A DNA stretch of 24,140 bases, taken from a virus. The notes under the pieces were generated by a model. It had not been told where the DNA came from. It searched no databases and saw only the letters and a list, made by a program, of their open reading frames with translations. Of the stretch, positions 12,664-21,989 are shown in pieces. How positions within the stretch are numbered: position 1 is the first letter of the stretch; each line of letters opens with the position of its first letter. The position numbers were made by a program, and so were the translations under genes. The stretch is from positions 1 through 24,140 of the IMG/VR virus record IMGVR_UViG_3300028025_002913. The stretch is one strand, 5' to 3'.

Positions 12664-14406
12664 TTACCCAGGAAATTCTGCTCCAGTTGGTAATACAATG
12701 AAATCAAGTGAAATAAATTCTGCTGTTTTAGTTGGTTGAATGTAAATTTGTCCTACTAATTGGTTTCTGTCGATAACATCTGGGCCATTATTAGTGTCAT
12801 CCATTACGATACGGAATGCGTACAAACCTTGTTTTTGTTGGATGTTTTCTAAGTATGGGTTAACACGGGACAAGAACAATGAACGTGTACGTTCTGTGTT
12901 TTGTTCGAATACGATGTTGTCTGCTAATTGACCGATATATCCTTTCAATTCGATTAATAAACGTCTAACGTTTACTCTGTCTAGTGCGGATGTACCTTTT
13001 TGTAGCGTTTTTTGTCCATAAATTACTACACCAACTTTTGGCATTGTTGCTAATGGGTTGATGTTGCTTAAGTACAATTCGTCTTTTTGTGCTTGAGACA
13101 ATTTGTATTGAGCGCGAGATACGTTGTTTAAACCACCTCTGTTGATACCCGCTGGTGCGAACCAAGGAGCAGCAATTTTGTCGTTGTTTGCGTATACACC
13201 TGGTATTAATGTAGATGCAGGAACCCAAACGTATTTTCCAGTTGCTGGGTCGATCATGTTACACCATGGCCAGTAAGTAGTTGCGTATGAATTATCGCGT
13301 GTCTGTGCTTGAGCGACTGCTTCACTGACTGTTGAATTGTAATCAGTTAAATCAACGATATATAAATTGTCTCCACGGTTTTGTGTGTTGGTGATAATTG
13401 TAGATATTGTTGATGTGTGTAAGTCGTTAGTTAAACCTGGTGTAGTTAATATGTTGAATCTATATTCGTCTTTGTTTGACAATAGATTAATCATGTTTGT
13501 GTAGTTGTCTGCAACTAAACCTTGTGTGTTTGATGAGTTAATTGCATCGTAGAAATTAGCACCTCCTTTAACAGTACCTGTAGCGCCACCAAATACACCT
13601 AATTGTGCTGCTGGTATTTTTGCTGCGTATCCTGTTTTTGGTTGACCGTTTGTGTCTAAATAGTCAGGTGTTGTTGAGTTAACTGCAGCTACACGAATGT
13701 ATTTTGATGCGTTAGGGTAAGAACCACTGAATTCCATCTGTAGTGTTGATGGGTTGTAGTTTAATTTAGTATCGCCAATTACACGTGCAATGTAGTTTGG
13801 TGATTTTGGATCTAAGTTTACACCGTTGAATGCTTCAAGTACCACTTTCTTGTTTGTCTTGTCGTTACCTTGACGAACAATTACATTAAATGTACCTGAT
13901 GCTGTGTTTGGTGATGAAATTTCAAATCGAATATTATTTGCTGTGCCTAAAGTTAAGCTACCAGATGTACCTAATGTTGCGTTGTTTTGGTCTACACCTT
14001 CACTTAGTGTTTCAAGTTGGAATACATTTACTCCACCGCCTGCTACGTATGAAGAACTAACATAACCGTCAAACACATATGCTGAATCATTTGCAATGAC
14101 AGATGATGTAGCTGGAGCATATGAACCAGACACAACACGAGCAACTAGCAATGATTGACCACCGTAGTTGAAGTAATTGTATGCAGCAATTGATGTGAAA
14201 TAAGAATAAACATCACTTCCACTAGTGATGATGTCACCGAATACGTTTTTGTATTCTGAATAAGATGTAACTACAGTTGGAACCTCAACTGGTCCCTTAA
14301 CTGTTGGGCCAATTATAGCGGCACCAACCTGAATAGGCTGACCTGATAGATATGAATTATCTAGCTCGTTTAATGTTACTCCTGGAGATATTGTAAAGTT
14401 TCCCAT
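12664..14406 (-). CDS. Tail sheath protein, copy 2 (tube-proximal), gp18-like
   Basis: A 580-residue contractile sheath protein. The N-terminus has SPGVTLNELDNS and then QPIQVGAAIIGPTVKGPVEV (22-41), TVVTSYSEYKNVFG, the usual sheath start. The C-terminal domain (about 450-580) holds VVIYGQKTLQ, LDRVNVRRLLIEL (475-487), FEQNTERTRSLF and LVGQIYIQPTKTAEFISLDF, the conserved sheath core that joins neighbouring subunits and faces the tube. The middle (~100-330) is Ser/Thr/Asn-rich and is the least conserved part compared with copy 1. Over the last ~130 residues I count about 93 identical positions to copy 1 by hand. It has its own ATATTTATA element. The family is certain; whether both copies enter the same sheath is not known. 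Confidence 0.94.
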   Translation of the reverse strand: MGNFTISPGVTLNELDNSYLSGQPIQVGAAIIGPTVKGPVEVPTVVTSYSEYKNVFGDIITSGSDVYSYFTSIAAYNYFNYGGQSLLVARVVSGSYAPATSSVIANDSAYVFDGYVSSSYVAGGGVNVFQLETLSEGVDQNNATLGTSGSLTLGTANNIRFEISSPNTASGTFNVIVRQGNDKTNKKVVLEAFNGVNLDPKSPNYIARVIGDTKLNYNPSTLQMEFSGSYPNASKYIRVAAVNSTTPDYLDTNGQPKTGYAAKIPAAQLGVFGGATGTVKGGANFYDAINSSNTQGLVADNYTNMINLLSNKDEYRFNILTTPGLTNDLHTSTISTIITNTQNRGDNLYIVDLTDYNSTVSEAVAQAQTRDNSYATTYWPWCNMIDPATGKYVWVPASTLIPGVYANNDKIAAPWFAPAGINRGGLNNVSRAQYKLSQAQKDELYLSNINPLATMPKVGVVIYGQKTLQKGTSALDRVNVRRLLIELKGYIGQLADNIVFEQNTERTRSLFLSRVNPYLENIQQKQGLYAFRIVMDDTNNGPDVIDRNQLVGQIYIQPTKTAEFISLDFIVLPTGAEFPG

Positions 14407-14460: not shown

Positions 14461-16161
14461 CTAAATTGTTACTCCAGTTGGTAGGATATTGAATTCCAGT
14501 AATATAAATTCGGATGTTTTTGTTGGCTGGATATATATTTGTCCTACTAATTGGTTGTTGTCTATTACGGTTGGTGTGTTGTTCGTATCGTCCATTACTA
14601 CATTAAAGTCGTACAGACCTTGTTGTTGTTGTATAGTAGATAAATATGGATTTACTTGTGCTAAAAATTCATTACGTGTACTTGCTGTATTTTGTTCAAA
14701 TACTAATGATTGTGCTATTTGACCAATGTAGTTATTTAATTCGATTAATAAACGTCTAACGTTTACACGATCCAATGCGGTATTTTTCTTTTGTAGCGTT
14801 TTCTGACCATATACAACTACACCATATCCTGGTAGTGTTGCTAATGGGTTTACGTTTGCTTCGTATAGCGCGTCTCTTCCGCTTTGTGTAACTACGCGTT
14901 CAACACGAGTTACGTTAGTTACAACACCTCTGTTAGTACCAGCTGGTGCTATCCATGGGTACGAAACTCTGTCACTAGCCATATATACACCTGGTATTAA
15001 TGTGGATGCAGGTACCCATACGTTTTGTCCAGTTGCTGGATCAATTGTTTGAGCCCAAGGCCAATATGTTGCTACGAATGATGTATCGAATGCTGCGGCT
15101 GCGTTAACTGTAGTGGTTAAATTTTGACCATATTCAACTACATCAACTATAGCCATTGTATCACCACGTTCAGTAACCATAGGTATCAATTTAGTGTTGA
15201 TAACGTTGTAGTGGTTAGTGAATGAATTACGTCCAATTAAACCTGGAACAGTGATGAAATTGAATCGGTATGAATCTTTATTTGCTAATAATGCAATTGA
15301 TTGTGTATATGCTGATGCTGGTAAACCTTGTGTATTTGTATCACTAATTGCCTCGTAGTATTTGGCTGCGGTTCCAGTTGGTATGTTTTTACCTGTTGCT
15401 CCACCGAATGATCCACTAGCTAAAGTAGGGATGGAACTAGTGTATTGTGGTTTTGCTAAACCGTTGTTGTCTAAATAGTTTGGTGTAGGTGTAAGTACTT
15501 GTTTAACACGAACGCATTTTGAATTGTTTAAGTAACTACCAGTTAGTTCAAGGTAAAATTCACCGTTGTCTTCAGATACGTTTTCGGTAGTATTACCAAC
15601 GATTTTTTCAATGTAGTTTGGCGAGAATGGATCTAGCGATAGGTTGTTGTATGCCTCAAGTATAGATGGTGATGATGCTGAATCGTCTCCTTTTCTAATT
15701 AGTAGCGAGAATGTACCTGATGCCGTGTTTGGTGATGTGATTTGCCATCTGTAGTTATCGGCAGATCCGCTTACTAGTGAACCGCTGATTTCAGCACCAA
15801 CACTGTTCATGATTTCGCCTTCGGATAATGTTTCTAATACGAATGCTGTTTGAATAGATGCTGTAGCAGGTGTAAATGAGCCACTTACAACGCGAGTAAC
15901 TAGAAGTGAACTACCTCCGTTGTTGAAGTAATTATACGCTGAAATTGACGTCAAGTATGAATATGTTTGAGATCCACTTACTAATGTATCTCCAAATTTA
16001 TTTTGATATTCACTATATGTAGTTACTACGGTTGGGATACCTACAGGTCCTTTAACTGTTGGTCCGATGATGGCTGCTCCCGCTTGTATTGGTTGGGAAG
16101 TTACTGCAGAATTATCGTTTACGTTAATGGCTACCCCTGGTGATACAATAGTTGTTGGCAT
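14461..16161 (-). CDS. Tail sheath protein, copy 1 (paralogue), gp18-like
   Basis: A 566-residue sheath protein closely related to the next gene. Start: VSPGVAINVNDNS, QPIQAGAAIIGPTVKGPVGI (22-41), TVVTTYSEYQNKFG. End (from about 438): VVVYGQKTLQ, LDRVNVRRLLIEL, FEQNTASTRNEFL, LVGQIYIQPTKTSEFILLEF, ILPTGVTI. Both domains needed for a working sheath are present and no frameshift or stop is seen, so it is not a decaying copy. The difference from copy 2 is concentrated in the middle surface-exposed region. It ends with TAG, while copy 2 ends with TAA. A tandem pair of full-length sheath genes is uncommon in phages; multiple sheath paralogues are known in extracellular contractile systems such as Afp/PVC. 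Confidence 0.94.
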   Translation of the reverse strand: MPTTIVSPGVAINVNDNSAVTSQPIQAGAAIIGPTVKGPVGIPTVVTTYSEYQNKFGDTLVSGSQTYSYLTSISAYNYFNNGGSSLLVTRVVSGSFTPATASIQTAFVLETLSEGEIMNSVGAEISGSLVSGSADNYRWQITSPNTASGTFSLLIRKGDDSASSPSILEAYNNLSLDPFSPNYIEKIVGNTTENVSEDNGEFYLELTGSYLNNSKCVRVKQVLTPTPNYLDNNGLAKPQYTSSIPTLASGSFGGATGKNIPTGTAAKYYEAISDTNTQGLPASAYTQSIALLANKDSYRFNFITVPGLIGRNSFTNHYNVINTKLIPMVTERGDTMAIVDVVEYGQNLTTTVNAAAAFDTSFVATYWPWAQTIDPATGQNVWVPASTLIPGVYMASDRVSYPWIAPAGTNRGVVTNVTRVERVVTQSGRDALYEANVNPLATLPGYGVVVYGQKTLQKKNTALDRVNVRRLLIELNNYIGQIAQSLVFEQNTASTRNEFLAQVNPYLSTIQQQQGLYDFNVVMDDTNNTPTVIDNNQLVGQIYIQPTKTSEFILLEFNILPTGVTI

Positions 16162-16508: not shown

Positions 16509-18065
16509 TTATGTAAGTTGTGTTTTCTTCCATCCACCTCCAATATATACATAAAGGTAGCAAGTACCACTAATGTTTACAGGTACCATTTCACCTTCCA
16601 CACCAGTATATGATGGTGCTGCTGATTGTGTGGCTACCACAATGGTATTTCTGTCTGTTACTTTAAATGCATCTACTCGAGATCCAGCATTAGCCCCACC
16701 ACCAACAATAAATCTGGATGTTATATCTCCATGTGTATTGAATGATCCTACTACTGTTTGGGATGAACCTGATGCTATTGTGTTTGCTCCACCAGCATAT
16801 GAATATGAACCACTTGCTACTGTTTGGTAACCGGAGGCGTGTGAACCATCACCACTAGCAGTTGTTTGGAAACCTTCAGCGTGGGAAAAATTTCCTAAGG
16901 TTAAAGTAGCACCACCTTCAGCGTGTGAACTAACACCTCGGGTAATTGTACTTTCACCCTCAGCGTGTGAATTTTTTCCAATTGCCGTGGTGTACAAACC
17001 TTCAGCGTGGCTAGCATTGCCTTCAGTTCGAGAACCAGAACCTTCAGCATGGGAGAATGATCCGGTTACTGTTACTAAGTTACCATTAAGTAATGAACCA
17101 TTTACATGCAAATGAGCTTGTGGGTCTATTGTGCCAACACCAATATATCCCCTATTACTACCAGTACCGTGGATGTGGAGGTGTGGTTGATTATTAAGCA
17201 CATTATTAGTTGGGTGACCAGCATAGAATCTAATGTAGTTTTCTTTTATATTATTTATATCTAAAGCAAAATTTAGGATGTTTAATCCGTTTGAAAGTGA
17301 AGTGGAAGAGATGAAAGTATCGTCTTTTTTACCATATCTTGAATATGTTGATTCATTAGTGGTATTGGAACTCCGTACACCCATAAGTAATTGAGCTGCA
17401 CTTGAACCGGTTGGGGTTGATACACCCATCTGTACTATGTTTTTAGTACCAGATACTACTACTACACCACCATCAGCACTACTGGTATCGTATACCAGAT
17501 AATTATTAGCTTCACCGGCATGTACATGAAATTTATATTGTGGGCCGTTAGTACCAATACCAACATTACCATTTGTAGCAATTGTCATTTTGGTAGTACC
17601 ATTAGTTTCAAACTCCAATGATTGGTTGTCGTTTGTACCTAATGTTGCTGTAGCACCAAATGAGTTACCATCTTGTTTGAAGAATGAACTTGTATCTATA
17701 GTAGCGGCAATAGGTACATTAAATGTAGTTCCGTTCCCTTTAGTGAACACAAGGTTTGGGGATGAATATGATGCAGTAACCAGCAATGAACCTGTATCTG
17801 TTGATGAGCCTACAGCTGCTGATGCAGTATAGAATAATTGCCCGGTTGTAGTATTAATTGTTAATACGTTGGGGGTTGATACTTGAGTTAATGTTTTAAT
17901 GTAGGTGCTGCCGGATAAAGTTGTAGAACCAGTAACTTGAAATGAACCGGATACATTAATATCATATGCAACGATGCCAGTAAATGCATCCACTGATTGT
18001 GATACGTGGTATGGTCTCACTATGTTCAGTGAGACTATATCCTGTTTGTCGAGTCGTTTTGCCAT
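16509..18065 (-). CDS. Tail fibre/adhesin with YadA-like 14-residue repeats
   Basis: A 518-residue fibre protein. Residues 1-100 repeat the start of the 1301-aa fibre (HVSQSVDAFTG, YDI-VSGSF-VTGST, then NTTTGQLFYTASAAV), so this is probably the anchor to the particle. The middle contains two fibre motifs of the type G-(V/I)G(I/V)GT--P---(F/L)HV: NVGIGTNGPQYKFHV (167-181) and YIGVGTIDPQAHLHV (307-321). Residues 338-435 hold seven SHAEG/SHASG/SYAGG units with an exact period of 14 residues, as in the left-handed beta-roll head of YadA-type trimeric adhesins. The end (VEGEMVPVNISGTCYLYVYI, GGGWKKTQLT) may be the tip or a trimerisation foot. It starts 18 bases after the stop of the larger fibre, without an exact leader element. 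Trimeric host-binding fibre is an inference from these repeats. Confidence 0.82.
   Translation of the reverse strand: MAKRLDKQDIVSLNIVRPYHVSQSVDAFTGIVAYDINVSGSFQVTGSTTLSGSTYIKTLTQVSTPNVLTINTTTGQLFYTASAAVGSSTDTGSLLVTASYSSPNLVFTKGNGTTFNVPIAATIDTSSFFKQDGNSFGATATLGTNDNQSLEFETNGTTKMTIATNGNVGIGTNGPQYKFHVHAGEANNYLVYDTSSADGGVVVVSGTKNIVQMGVSTPTGSSAAQLLMGVRSSNTTNESTYSRYGKKDDTFISSTSLSNGLNILNFALDINNIKENYIRFYAGHPTNNVLNNQPHLHIHGTGSNRGYIGVGTIDPQAHLHVNGSLLNGNLVTVTGSFSHAEGSGSRTEGNASHAEGLYTTAIGKNSHAEGESTITRGVSSHAEGGATLTLGNFSHAEGFQTTASGDGSHASGYQTVASGSYSYAGGANTIASGSSQTVVGSFNTHGDITSRFIVGGGANAGSRVDAFKVTDRNTIVVATQSAAPSYTGVEGEMVPVNISGTCYLYVYIGGGWKKTQLT
16761..17054 (-). repeat. Seven 14-residue YadA-head-like repeats (42-base DNA period)
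   Basis: Codes residues 338-435 of the 518-aa fibre. The Ser that opens SHAEG lies at 338, 352, 366, 380, 394, 408 and 422, a strict 14-residue step; the last two copies drift to SHASG and SYAGG. Between them a second Gly motif (AIG, TRG, TLG, ASG) recurs, as in YadA-type heads. Confidence 0.85.
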
Positions 18066-18083
18066 GTTTATATATATGTTTTT

Positions 18084-21000
18084 TTAAATACTACGAATGA
18101 TTGTTTTAACAGTCCAACCATTTGTGGTTGTGGAACCAGTTAATGCTAAATTACTACCCGACACTAATACACCAAATGTAAATGTGGATGTATCGCCGAA
18201 TGATGATGCGGATGTTTCGACTTGGTTTACGCTACTTCCACTCCAAATGGCGAATATATTTCCTGCTCTTGCAGTTGAACCACTACGGATATTGTAGTCA
18301 ACATGAATACTGTCGTATGTTGATGTTGGTACAGTGTATAGTGTGGTTGAACCACTATTTGCTGTGGTTTTGTTAGTGGCGAATAACGCTGCTGCACCTG
18401 ATGCACCACCAAGTATGGTTGTGTAGTCTGAATTGGCTTGTAGTATACGGTTGGATCCAGTCCATACGGTGAATAATGAACCAGACACAACATCTGTTAT
18501 GTCGAATAATGGTCCGGTTGATCCGCTAACGGCTAATACCATTGAGCCGGATTTGTATATGTTTACACTACCTGTTGCGTTAATTGAACCCGATATAAGT
18601 ACTGCTTGGTTTAATTGATTAACATATGATGCAGTGGCAGCAAATGATGACGATACAGCATTTAGTACATATGAAGCGGTTTGTGCTAGTACAACATACG
18701 AAGCGGTTTGTGCTAAGGCAACATAACTTGCAGTAGAGGCAAATGAGGATGAAATTGCATTTGACGCCCAAGATGATGTACCGAACAATGAACCGGTGAT
18801 ACCGTTTTGTACGGTTAAACTACCAGTGATTGTTGCTGAACCATTTAACGTCATTACACGGTTTGAAGATACGTCAAATATTGCTGACGATCCAGTGTAT
18901 ATGGTCCATAGCGAACCGGATACAGAATCGGTAACTTCGAATAATGTACCTTGCGATCCACTAATTACTAGTGGGGATGAACCTGATTTGTATATGTTTA
19001 TACTACCAGTTGCGTTTAACGAGCCTGAAATAAGTACGGCTTGGTTTAATTGGTTAACGTATGATGCTGTTGATGCGAATGATGACGATACAGCGTTTAG
19101 TACATATGATGCGGTTTGAGCCGTTGTAACGAATGATGCCGTTTGTGCTAGTACAACATATGATGCAGTAGCTGCTTGTGTAGCGAATGATGAGGTACCG
19201 AATAATGATCCAGTGAATGATGTTGCAGTTAAGCTACCAGTTAACCCGTATGAACCGGTTAATTGTTTTGAATTGATCCACACACTACCAGATTTAACTA
19301 ACATATCACCATATGACGTTATTGTGGATGTATCAATTATGTCGTGCATTTCGCCAATTTCGTATCCGTTGTCGATACGAACATGCATGGATCCGTTGTT
19401 TGATTGTTGACGAATAACCTGACCTAATCGTACAGTATGAAGTGGTGCTGTAGGTTCGGTAGCGGTGATTGCACCACTTGCGCCCAAATACAACAATTGG
19501 CCTGAATTGTATAGTGAGGTGTCAATACCAAGTAATATACCCTCGGTGATGATGAAACCTTGCGATCCGTTTGTGATTTGCTGTGTAGCAATACCTAACG
19601 TATTTGCTGATACACCATCAGATTCATACGATGCAGTAGTGATACGTGGTATATCGCTGGCATTGTTTGAGCCAGTGATACGCACAACCATACCTTTTTG
19701 AATGGTGAAACCAGAATTGTTGAGTGCTAATATGTCTGTTTGTGTTGTGCGTTCTGAAAGTGATGAAGTTGCTGCATACGATGCGGATAATGCGGTAGAT
19801 GCATAACTAGCAGTTACAGCATACGATGCGGATAAAGCATATGAAGCAGATACAGCGTTTAACACATACGATGCTGTTTGAGCATTTGCAACATAACTAG
19901 CCGTTTGTGCCAATACAACATACGATGCAGTAGCTGAATATGAAGCGGATACTGCTTGTACAATGTGGGATGAAGTGATTGCGTTTAACGCCCACGATGC
20001 AGTACCAAATAGTGAACTAGTGACACCGTTCTGCACGTTTAAGCTACCAGTGATTGTGGTAACTAACGACGAATCAACTACTAATATGTTTGTGGACCCA
20101 GTTGCCACTGTTAATAGTGGACCTGAATTACTATCTGTTACGGTTAATAATGGTCCAGTTGAGCCACTAATGGTTACTACATTTGAACCAGATTTGTATA
20201 CACTGAAGCTACCAGTTAGTCCTAACGAACCAGTGATTTGTGCCGATCCTGTGTATGGGAACGCGGCAACAATACCAGTTACATGAGACGCTGTTAATGC
20301 GTATGACGATGAAATTACACTGTTTGAACCATACGGACCAAATACACCAGATGCAGTGATGAATGATGCCGTTTGTGCTGTTGTAACGAATGATGCCGTT
20401 TGCGCATTCGCAACGTAACTAGCTGTTTGCGCTAGTGTAACGAATGAAGCGGTTTGCGCATTCGCAACGAATGATGCCGTTACAGCATAGGATGAAGATA
20501 CAGCATATGAAGCGGTAGTAGCGAATGATGATGACACAGCATTAAGTACATACGATGCAGTCTGAGCATTCGCAACATAACTAGCTGTTTGTGCTAGTGT
20601 AACATATGATGCAGTAGCGGCCTGTGTAGCGTATGATGCAGTACCAATGAATGAATCTGCCGTTATACTACCACTAACGGATAAACTACCAGTGAACTGG
20701 TGTGTGTCGTCTGATGTATCGCCAAATTTGGTTGAACCAGATGCGTAAATAATGGACGATGAATTGTATATGGTATGGAATACGTTGAATGATGCCGTAC
20801 CGTTCACCACTAAATCGCCATTGATTGTAGCGCTACCAGTTACACCGAGCGAGCCAGTGATTTGTGCTGAACCGGTGAAGGGGAATGGTGAAATATATCC
20901 CTCTAAGTATGATGCGGTTAATGCGTATGAGGATGATGTGGATGTGTTTGAGTATGAAGATGTTACAGCGTATGACGCGCTTAGTACATAACTAGCGGTT

Positions 21001-21989
21001 TGTGCTAGTGTAACATATGATGCAGTATCGGCTAAATCAGCGTGTGAAGCGCTTACAGCATACGATGCGGATATGGCGTTCTGTGCAAATGATGCAGTAG
21101 TTGAGTAACTCGCCGATATAGCGTTGTCAGCCGCAGATGAACTCACAGCATATGATGCCGTAGTTGCGTATGAAGCAGTACCAGCAAATTGCGATATGTT
21201 TGAACCAGTATAGCTGTTAAATGATGATGTGGTAACTAAATAGTCTCCCAATTGCGTTGCCACGTCTTGGTAGTTAGCATATGTTGTTACACCATCGGAT
21301 GTGGTAGTTAATACATACGATCCAGTTGTGTATTGTATGCTGCTGCTAACCCAATCGATTACATCTGGGTAGAATACGCCTTGTTGTTTGATGCTGCCTG
21401 AAATGTATTGACTGCCGCTAAATATGTTTGAGCCAGTTGTGGCTAGTGAAGCGCTTTTAGCTACAAATACAGGGTCAGTTTCATTGTAGTACGAAGCCGT
21501 CTGTGCATTTTTAACATAGCTAGCTGTTAATGCATACGATGCACTTACAGCATATGAAGAGGACAATGAACGTTCAGCATACGAAGCCGTTAATGTATAC
21601 GATGCACTTGTAGCATATGAAGCGGACAATGAACGTTCAGCATATGAAGCAGTTACTGAATACGATGCACTTACAGCATTTGATGCAGTAGCTGGAGATA
21701 TAGCGCTTGATGCAGTGTAGTATAATTGTCCATTGATTGGATTAAATGTTACTACATTGGTTTGTGCTGTGCTAGTTAAGTTAGGTGCTACTACATTACC
21801 ATACATGGTAGTAGGACCATCTATGCTTACATCGCCTTTGATTGATGTGGAACCGGTTACGGTAAATGAACCTGATATGGTAATATCGTAGTCGTCTGCA
21901 CCTGTGAATGCGTCTACTGACTGTGATACGTGTTGTGGGTAGATTATTTGGTTAAGAACTATGCCGTTGTTCGATAGGTTTTTTGCCAT
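18084..21989 (-). CDS. Giant tail fibre made of ASY repeats and fibre modules (1301 aa)
   Basis: A 1301-residue fibre protein rich in Ser, Ala, Thr, Tyr and Gly. Order: shared anchor (1-100: HVSQSVDAFTG, YDITISGSFTVTGST, INGQLYYTASSAI); ASY blocks at about 105-168, 269-361, 449-569, 661-743, 931-978 and 1071-1123; YKSG fibre modules at about 588-660, 988-1070 and 1132-1192; a non-repetitive domain at about 750-890 (MVVRITGSNNASDIPRI, GSQGFIITEGILLGIDTS, LYLGASGAITATEPTAPLH); and a C-terminal tip at about 1205-1301 (TTLYTVPTSTYDSIHVDYNI, FTFGVLVSGSNLALTGSTTT). It has no cysteine-rich or membrane part. It is the longest protein in the window and probably the long host-contact fibre; the anchor shared with the next gene suggests attachment to the same baseplate site. 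Fibre type is strong; the receptor is unknown. Confidence 0.85.
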   Translation of the reverse strand: MAKNLSNNGIVLNQIIYPQHVSQSVDAFTGADDYDITISGSFTVTGSTSIKGDVSIDGPTTMYGNVVAPNLTSTAQTNVVTFNPINGQLYYTASSAISPATASNAVSASYSVTASYAERSLSASYATSASYTLTASYAERSLSSSYAVSASYALTASYVKNAQTASYYNETDPVFVAKSASLATTGSNIFSGSQYISGSIKQQGVFYPDVIDWVSSSIQYTTGSYVLTTTSDGVTTYANYQDVATQLGDYLVTTSSFNSYTGSNISQFAGTASYATTASYAVSSSAADNAISASYSTTASFAQNAISASYAVSASHADLADTASYVTLAQTASYVLSASYAVTSSYSNTSTSSSYALTASYLEGYISPFPFTGSAQITGSLGVTGSATINGDLVVNGTASFNVFHTIYNSSSIIYASGSTKFGDTSDDTHQFTGSLSVSGSITADSFIGTASYATQAATASYVTLAQTASYVANAQTASYVLNAVSSSFATTASYAVSSSYAVTASFVANAQTASFVTLAQTASYVANAQTASFVTTAQTASFITASGVFGPYGSNSVISSSYALTASHVTGIVAAFPYTGSAQITGSLGLTGSFSVYKSGSNVVTISGSTGPLLTVTDSNSGPLLTVATGSTNILVVDSSLVTTITGSLNVQNGVTSSLFGTASWALNAITSSHIVQAVSASYSATASYVVLAQTASYVANAQTASYVLNAVSASYALSASYAVTASYASTALSASYAATSSLSERTTQTDILALNNSGFTIQKGMVVRITGSNNASDIPRITTASYESDGVSANTLGIATQQITNGSQGFIITEGILLGIDTSLYNSGQLLYLGASGAITATEPTAPLHTVRLGQVIRQQSNNGSMHVRIDNGYEIGEMHDIIDTSTITSYGDMLVKSGSVWINSKQLTGSYGLTGSLTATSFTGSLFGTSSFATQAATASYVVLAQTASFVTTAQTASYVLNAVSSSFASTASYVNQLNQAVLISGSLNATGSINIYKSGSSPLVISGSQGTLFEVTDSVSGSLWTIYTGSSAIFDVSSNRVMTLNGSATITGSLTVQNGITGSLFGTSSWASNAISSSFASTASYVALAQTASYVVLAQTASYVLNAVSSSFAATASYVNQLNQAVLISGSINATGSVNIYKSGSMVLAVSGSTGPLFDITDVVSGSLFTVWTGSNRILQANSDYTTILGGASGAAALFATNKTTANSGSTTLYTVPTSTYDSIHVDYNIRSGSTARAGNIFAIWSGSSVNQVETSASSFGDTSTFTFGVLVSGSNLALTGSTTTNGWTVKTIIRSI
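18414..20228 (-). repeat. Three copies of a YKSG fibre module interleaved with ASY blocks
   Basis: Copies code residues 588-660 (20010-20228), 988-1070 (18780-19028) and 1132-1192 (18414-18596). Common plan: GS(L/I)---TGS--(V/I)YKSGS, (V/I)SGS-GPL(L/F)-(V/I)TD, SG-L(L/F/W)T(V/I)-TGS. Copies 1 and 2 are followed by (T/A)TITGSL-VQNG(V/I)T-SLFGT and another ASY block; copy 3 runs into the tip domain. Confidence 0.8.
18621..21677 (-). repeat. ASY repeat blocks with 6- and 9-residue units (six blocks)
   Basis: Blocks at 21486-21677, 20907-21185, 20283-20645, 19761-20009, 19056-19199 and 18621-18779. Each unit opens with (T/S)(A/S)S(Y/F) and is either 6 residues (SASYAV, TASYAV) or 9 residues (TASYVANAQ, TASYVLNAV, TASYAERSL). 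In the DNA this gives irregular 18- and 27-base periods with many near-identical words. Confidence 0.88.

Follow-up and report, generated by a model that had tools for sequence, protein, structure and literature searches.

A giant fibre protein encoded in the window (the whole 24,140-nucleotide stretch of viral DNA analysed here) contains six arrays of a short aromatic word that recurs at steps of six or nine residues, and viral relatives share this spacing rule. On the combined grounds of sequence, crude backbone models and analogy with solved fibres, the most likely reading, in which we place about even confidence, is that the arrays form a trimeric alpha/beta coiled-coil shaft. The features on which the argument draws are as follows.

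12664-14406 and 14461-16161, minus strand: two tandem tail sheath genes
18084..21989, minus strand: giant fibre protein with the 6/9 arrays, an ORF of 1301 aa with an identical copy in IMG/VR (L001)
21690..21989, minus strand: N-terminal domain, residues 1-100, common to the adjacent fibre (16509-18065) and many array proteins
21489..21671, minus strand: array 1, residues 107-167, steps 6,9,6,6,9,6,6,9
20907..21179, minus strand: array 2, residues 271-361, steps 6,15,6,9,6,9,9,6,6,9,6
20361..20642, minus strand: array 3, residues 450-543, steps 9,9,9,9,6,6,6,9,9,9,9
19770..20003, minus strand: array 4, residues 663-740, steps 9,9,6,9,9,9,6,6,9
19059..19196, minus strand: array 5, residues 932-977, steps 9,9,9,9,6
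18774..19067, minus strand: TGS-rich inter-array module, presumed beta, residues 975-1072 (phmmer)
18624..18779, minus strand: array 6, residues 1071-1122, steps 9,6,9,9,9,6
18087..18419, minus strand: C-terminal domain, residues 1191-1301, with phmmer matches in L004, L112, L061, L079 and L068

All six arrays fall within residues ~105-1123, which is exactly 18621-21677, and a two-word outlier follows array 3 (residues 560-570). The strict word [TS][AS]S[YF] occurs 56 times, with steps of nine (25), six (19) and 15 (2) residues and none of seven or eight. Admitting H and W at the aromatic position, (T/S)(A/S)S(Y/F/H/W), gives 61 words and 53 steps of 20 residues or less, of which 29 are nine, 21 are six and again none is seven or eight; the remaining three measure 15, 17 and 20 residues, the last two lying in inter-array linkers. 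The original prediction, that some 50 units step by six or nine only and never by seven or eight, thus describes 50 of the 53 close steps. Composition-shuffled sequences contain a mean of 2.5 words and a maximum of 9, so the word arrays are not due to chance. The nine-residue unit had further been proposed to be the six-residue unit plus a three-residue insert, often with A-Q or A-V, and this is what we find, the usual insert being N-A-Q or N-A-V. Unit length is reflected in the unit's first residue (T in 28 of 29 nine-units, S in 18 of 21 six-units) and in the residue following Y (V in 18 of 29 nine-units, A in 16 of 21 six-units), while the position two residues ahead of the following word holds A in 26 of 29 nine-units and 16 of 21 six-units, and otherwise S, T or V. 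The first residue also predicts unit length in relatives (S for six, T for nine), significantly so regardless of the preceding unit.

At the conserved A/T/V/S/L positions, only ~37% of unit comparisons use the same synonymous codon, and the 61 words have 46 distinct DNA spellings; the units are therefore not fresh DNA duplications, and the protein rule is maintained while the DNA has drifted.

Relatives were collected as 32 IMG/VR loci found by similarity and then by a DNA pattern scan of IMG/VR, which supplied most of the proteins. In the pattern, three ASY codon triplets followed one another at any distance from 3 to 33 bases; being keyed to Ala-Ser-Tyr codons, it places aromatic-free arrays outside the sample. 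Among the IMG/VR matches listed, 76% of steps were 18 or 27 bases and 99.6% were in frame; for the same pattern in GTDB genomes the values were 10% and 74%, the commonest step being 21 bases. The 6/9 rule is absent from this cellular control, and the proposed three-residue module, set apart from heptad coiled coils, is real and general among the viral relatives; the original prediction is supported to that extent, its trimeric shaft staying a proposal. At least 168 non-redundant proteins (near-copies removed) among the matches listed gave 918 steps of six, 1113 of nine, 83 of seven and 5 of eight, totals that are counts and not independent events because the proteins are partly related. A survey of relatives for frequent steps of seven or eight had been suggested as a check on the prediction; eights proved practically absent and sevens rare, with more than a third of the latter (29 of 83 among the matches listed) in one protein, L140. 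Steps of four residues belong to a separate TGSF motif let in by the looser word. With a stricter word, both unit lengths occurred in 85 of the 90 proteins that had eight or more close steps among the matches listed, two proteins lacking nines and three lacking sixes, and the lags between aromatic residues in relatives peak at 6, 9, 15 and 18.

Two further spacings were noted. The L140 ORF (L140+2_2254) has seven-residue units, SSSYSPL/SSSFSLV, which carry proline inside and so form no ordinary heptad helix; they are perhaps a third unit type. Ten-residue steps are largely TASYYGGSVV-like, and L120, L072 and others have spacers of the types TASYYGGSVV/T and TASYALNVPV between arrays.

Fibre length had been expected to change by whole units. 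Between the window and its orthologues in L004 or L006 we find whole-unit indels of 9 and 36 residues, together with three-residue insertions (AIN, VLN and AFN) that convert six-units to nine-units; since the alignments favour the word register, these cases illustrate the rule and do not independently test it. Pure hexad runs reach 16 steps in L055, 14 in L053 and 12 in L075, among the matches listed. Serine codons in L055 change between AGY and TCN from one hexad to the next; this rules out a young microsatellite and points to selection on its hexad runs at the protein level.

A position profile over distinct units, anchored on S-aromatic only (an anchor on the aromatic alone gives the same picture), places A, S, T, V or G at positions 2, 5 and 8 in 93-99% of units, that is, a small residue at every third position, and confines variable and polar residues to positions 6, 7 and 9. 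Together with the aromatic lags, this gives the arrays a core period of 3.0 residues. Array composition is dominated by S (27%), A (24%), T (12%) and Y (10%), and the near-absence of G (0.2%), P (0.1%) and charge (~1.4%) argues for an unbroken regular structure.

In trimeric coiled coils, units of six or nine residues force the formation of beta-layers, the hexad being a nonad without a-b-c, and the structure of a nonad fibre has been solved (Hartmann 2016, PMC4786415). For the arrays we infer trimer, fold, register and function as follows. They would make up parts of a tail-fibre shaft, an alpha/beta coiled coil of three parallel chains. The chains would cross by ~120 degrees in short beta-layers, and between successive layers would lie one helical triplet or two, each very short. 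A six-unit would comprise a beta-layer and the helical triplet e-f-g, and a nine-unit would add a second helical triplet, a-b-c; steps would always be multiples of three because every unit is a beta-layer plus one or two such triplets, and mixtures of six and nine would be tolerated because both lengths have the same 3.0-residue core period. The proposed register assigns A-S-Y to the beta-layer, [A/V]-x-[N] to e-f-g and A-x-T to a-b-c. Units could be added, lost or switched between six and nine without breaking the trimer, so that fibre length would evolve in small steps.

This register was compared with others on crude C3 backbone models (N, CA, C, O and CB only) restrained to the published hydrogen bonds. 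Restrained nonad models close without serious clash, the best of them burying the published positions b1, b2 and a, and some models of pure hexads are free of clashes; a backbone search run without restraints missed the known beta-layer contacts and was set aside. With ASY as beta-layer, modelled burial correlates with sequence variability at rho -0.69 for nonads (best of 9 registers) and -0.83 for hexads (best of 6), a suggestive result, over nine and six positions only, that this assignment fits conservation best in both units. The TAS register has S at b3 and A at b2, yet it places Asn in the core, at position a, and its agreement with burial is poor (rho 0.10). The first register considered, with Y-V-x as a-b-c and N-A-Q as the layer, also had a poor burial fit. 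In the ASY register b1 is A/S, b2 is S and a is A/S, where known layers have a hydrophobic b1, a small b2 and a hydrophobic a; at the capping positions it has Y at b3 and A/V at e, while the TAS register has S at b3 and acids enriched at position 6. We accordingly put it that the arrays work like an alpha/beta coiled coil, a statement we hold at roughly even confidence, and do not file them as a proven member of that class, because the best register departs from the capping pattern, the composition is atypical and AlphaFold2 monomer models, at a confidence too low to be informative, show no helix in the arrays.

The main rival, unlikely but to be taken seriously, is another trimeric fold with a three-residue period, largely of beta structure: three strands would intertwine as a spiral, each triplet would contribute one small residue to the trimer axis, the aromatics would wrap around the outside, and six and nine would correspond to two and three triplets per turn. 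Such a fold would suit the beta-prone, Ser/Thr/Tyr-rich composition, the small residue in the middle of every triplet and the beta-like look of the linked TGS modules, and triple beta structures are frequent in phage fibres; yet the Gly, Pro and Asp expected in beta-helix turns are nearly absent from the arrays, we know of no triple beta fold with a strict 6/9 unit, and the exact pair of six and nine is what the alpha/beta coiled coil predicts. It is quite improbable that the arrays are disordered or flexible Ser/Thr/Ala-rich linkers with a periodicity left by DNA repeat expansion. Low complexity speaks for such linkers, as does the very low confidence of AlphaFold2 monomer predictions (pLDDT 33 for residues 638-1301 and 49 for one array with 24 relatives); but the protein unit persists despite scrambled synonymous codons, the AGY/TCN alternation of L055 being a further instance, the 6/9 rule spans divergent proteins, and G, P and charge are almost nil. 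Least probable is an irregularly spaced coiled coil of heptads or hendecads, for which the seven-residue units of L140 might be cited, or a left-handed beta-helix, a fold in which hexads do occur: sevens are absent from the window and number 83 against more than 2,000 six- and nine-steps among the matches listed, nine-units outnumber and alternate with six-units where the beta-helix needs a strict six-residue repeat, and neither fold allows free alternation of six and nine.

Around the alpha/beta coiled-coil shaft that we favour, the rest of the protein is modular. By eye, the arrays are bordered by TGS-rich segments, and no flanking heptads were seen. The TGS-rich module is repeated after array 6 and in relatives (~30 array proteins matched by phmmer), and L006 has insertions of one complete module (94-97 aa); these presumed beta modules would connect the arrays. 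The N-terminal domain, matched by phmmer in about a dozen array proteins, is probably the virion anchor; residues 1-135 of the giant fibre align with the neighbouring fibre at 46% identity (E 2e-17). The C-terminal domain is possibly the fibre tip. The C-terminal region (18084-18500, minus strand) also has a match, at 43% over half of the query, in LR756501/LR756503, an uncultured phage record of 735 kb that carries no annotation. Near the fibre genes the window encodes the two tail sheath proteins, a tail tube and a baseplate hub protein; array genes lie near sheath genes in L006 and L085 as well, and that of L008 adjoins a gene resembling a long tail fibre distal subunit. By shared domains and tail-gene context, the array proteins are a modular tail-fibre family. 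L006 likewise has two consecutive sheath genes.

Sheath homologues identify Flavobacterium phage immuto (the closest by tail sheath, about 50% identity) and Microcystis phage Mel-JY01 as cultured relatives; the genes checked in cultured relatives (for immuto, seven neighbouring genes) contained no arrays. An immuto tail fibre (L273:10851-12587) has by eye, after an ITGSLFGTA segment, a GTATNATNATNAT segment with Ala at every third residue; judged from its sequence, the segment may represent, in a cultured phage, the triplet shaft without its aromatics.

No relative turned up in the PDB when its sequences were searched with a profile, a hexad run, a single array or the entire protein, and in Pfam, PHROG and PDB no family model or solved chain matched the arrays, the only matches being weak or of low complexity. 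Among those set aside was a low-complexity Pfam match to 'Plasmodium_HRP', below cut-off. A likeness of GTASYATQAATASYV to a GNASSATKLATARTI-like sequence, which we take to be a tail-fibre motif, pointed to nothing but the phage Dec protein 6e3c and was abandoned.

The arrays set apart a large class of phage fibre shafts, so far without annotation, whose sequence grammar is simple and which none of the family libraries searched (Pfam, PHROG, PDB) recognises. The broader proposal, which we advance tentatively and at somewhat less than even confidence, is that these fibres are naturally occurring alpha/beta coiled coils of extended length, with uninterrupted hexad arrays among them (of up to 16 steps, in L055), in which the mixing of six and nine tunes length and twist. 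A hexad-only form had been predicted to be possible, with three beta and three alpha residues and no intrachain helical hydrogen bonds left; at that time hexad-spaced proteins had gone undetected, a single layer pair in 2C3F excepted, and an attempt at construction had failed (Hartmann 2016, PMC4786415). We found no later report of hexad arrays in the open-licence literature. If the proposal is true, the hexad arrays are this minimal form, in 2016 neither built nor found; with many natural hexad candidates now available, in runs of up to 16 steps among the matches listed, the hexad-only question is directly testable.

Among known systems, one likeness is with phage fibre segments of the GTATNATNATNAT type (e.g. 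immuto), which have Ala at every third residue in common with the arrays and are without the aromatic word and the 6/9 spacing. Trimeric autotransporter adhesins and YadA-head repeats are modular trimeric fibres, as the array proteins would be; the arrays match no YadA model. The adjacent fibre (16509-18065, minus strand, 518 aa) does have HAEG-type YadA-head-like repeats (Pfam PF05658, below cut-off). The tail-fibre hyaluronidase of Streptococcus pyogenes prophage SF370.1 (2C3F) is also a phage tail fibre and has two beta-layers in hexad spacing, but as a single lysine-capped pair within a heptad/hendecad coiled coil. The known natural alpha/beta coiled coils have nonads in charged, helix-forming sequence flanked by heptads, whereas the arrays are S/A/T/Y-rich, poor in charge and in good helix formers, and run as long free mixtures of six and nine or as long pure hexads; known beta-layers typically, though not universally, have D/N/T/S at b3, D/E/Q at g and K/R at e, to which the arrays conform in part. 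With the alpha/beta coiled coils (the Tcar0761 nonad fibre, 5APZ, and the OMP100 stalk, 5APP; PMC4786415) the arrays nonetheless share units of six and nine residues, a core that repeats every 3.0 residues, layers with small residues and a hexad that reads as a shortened nonad.
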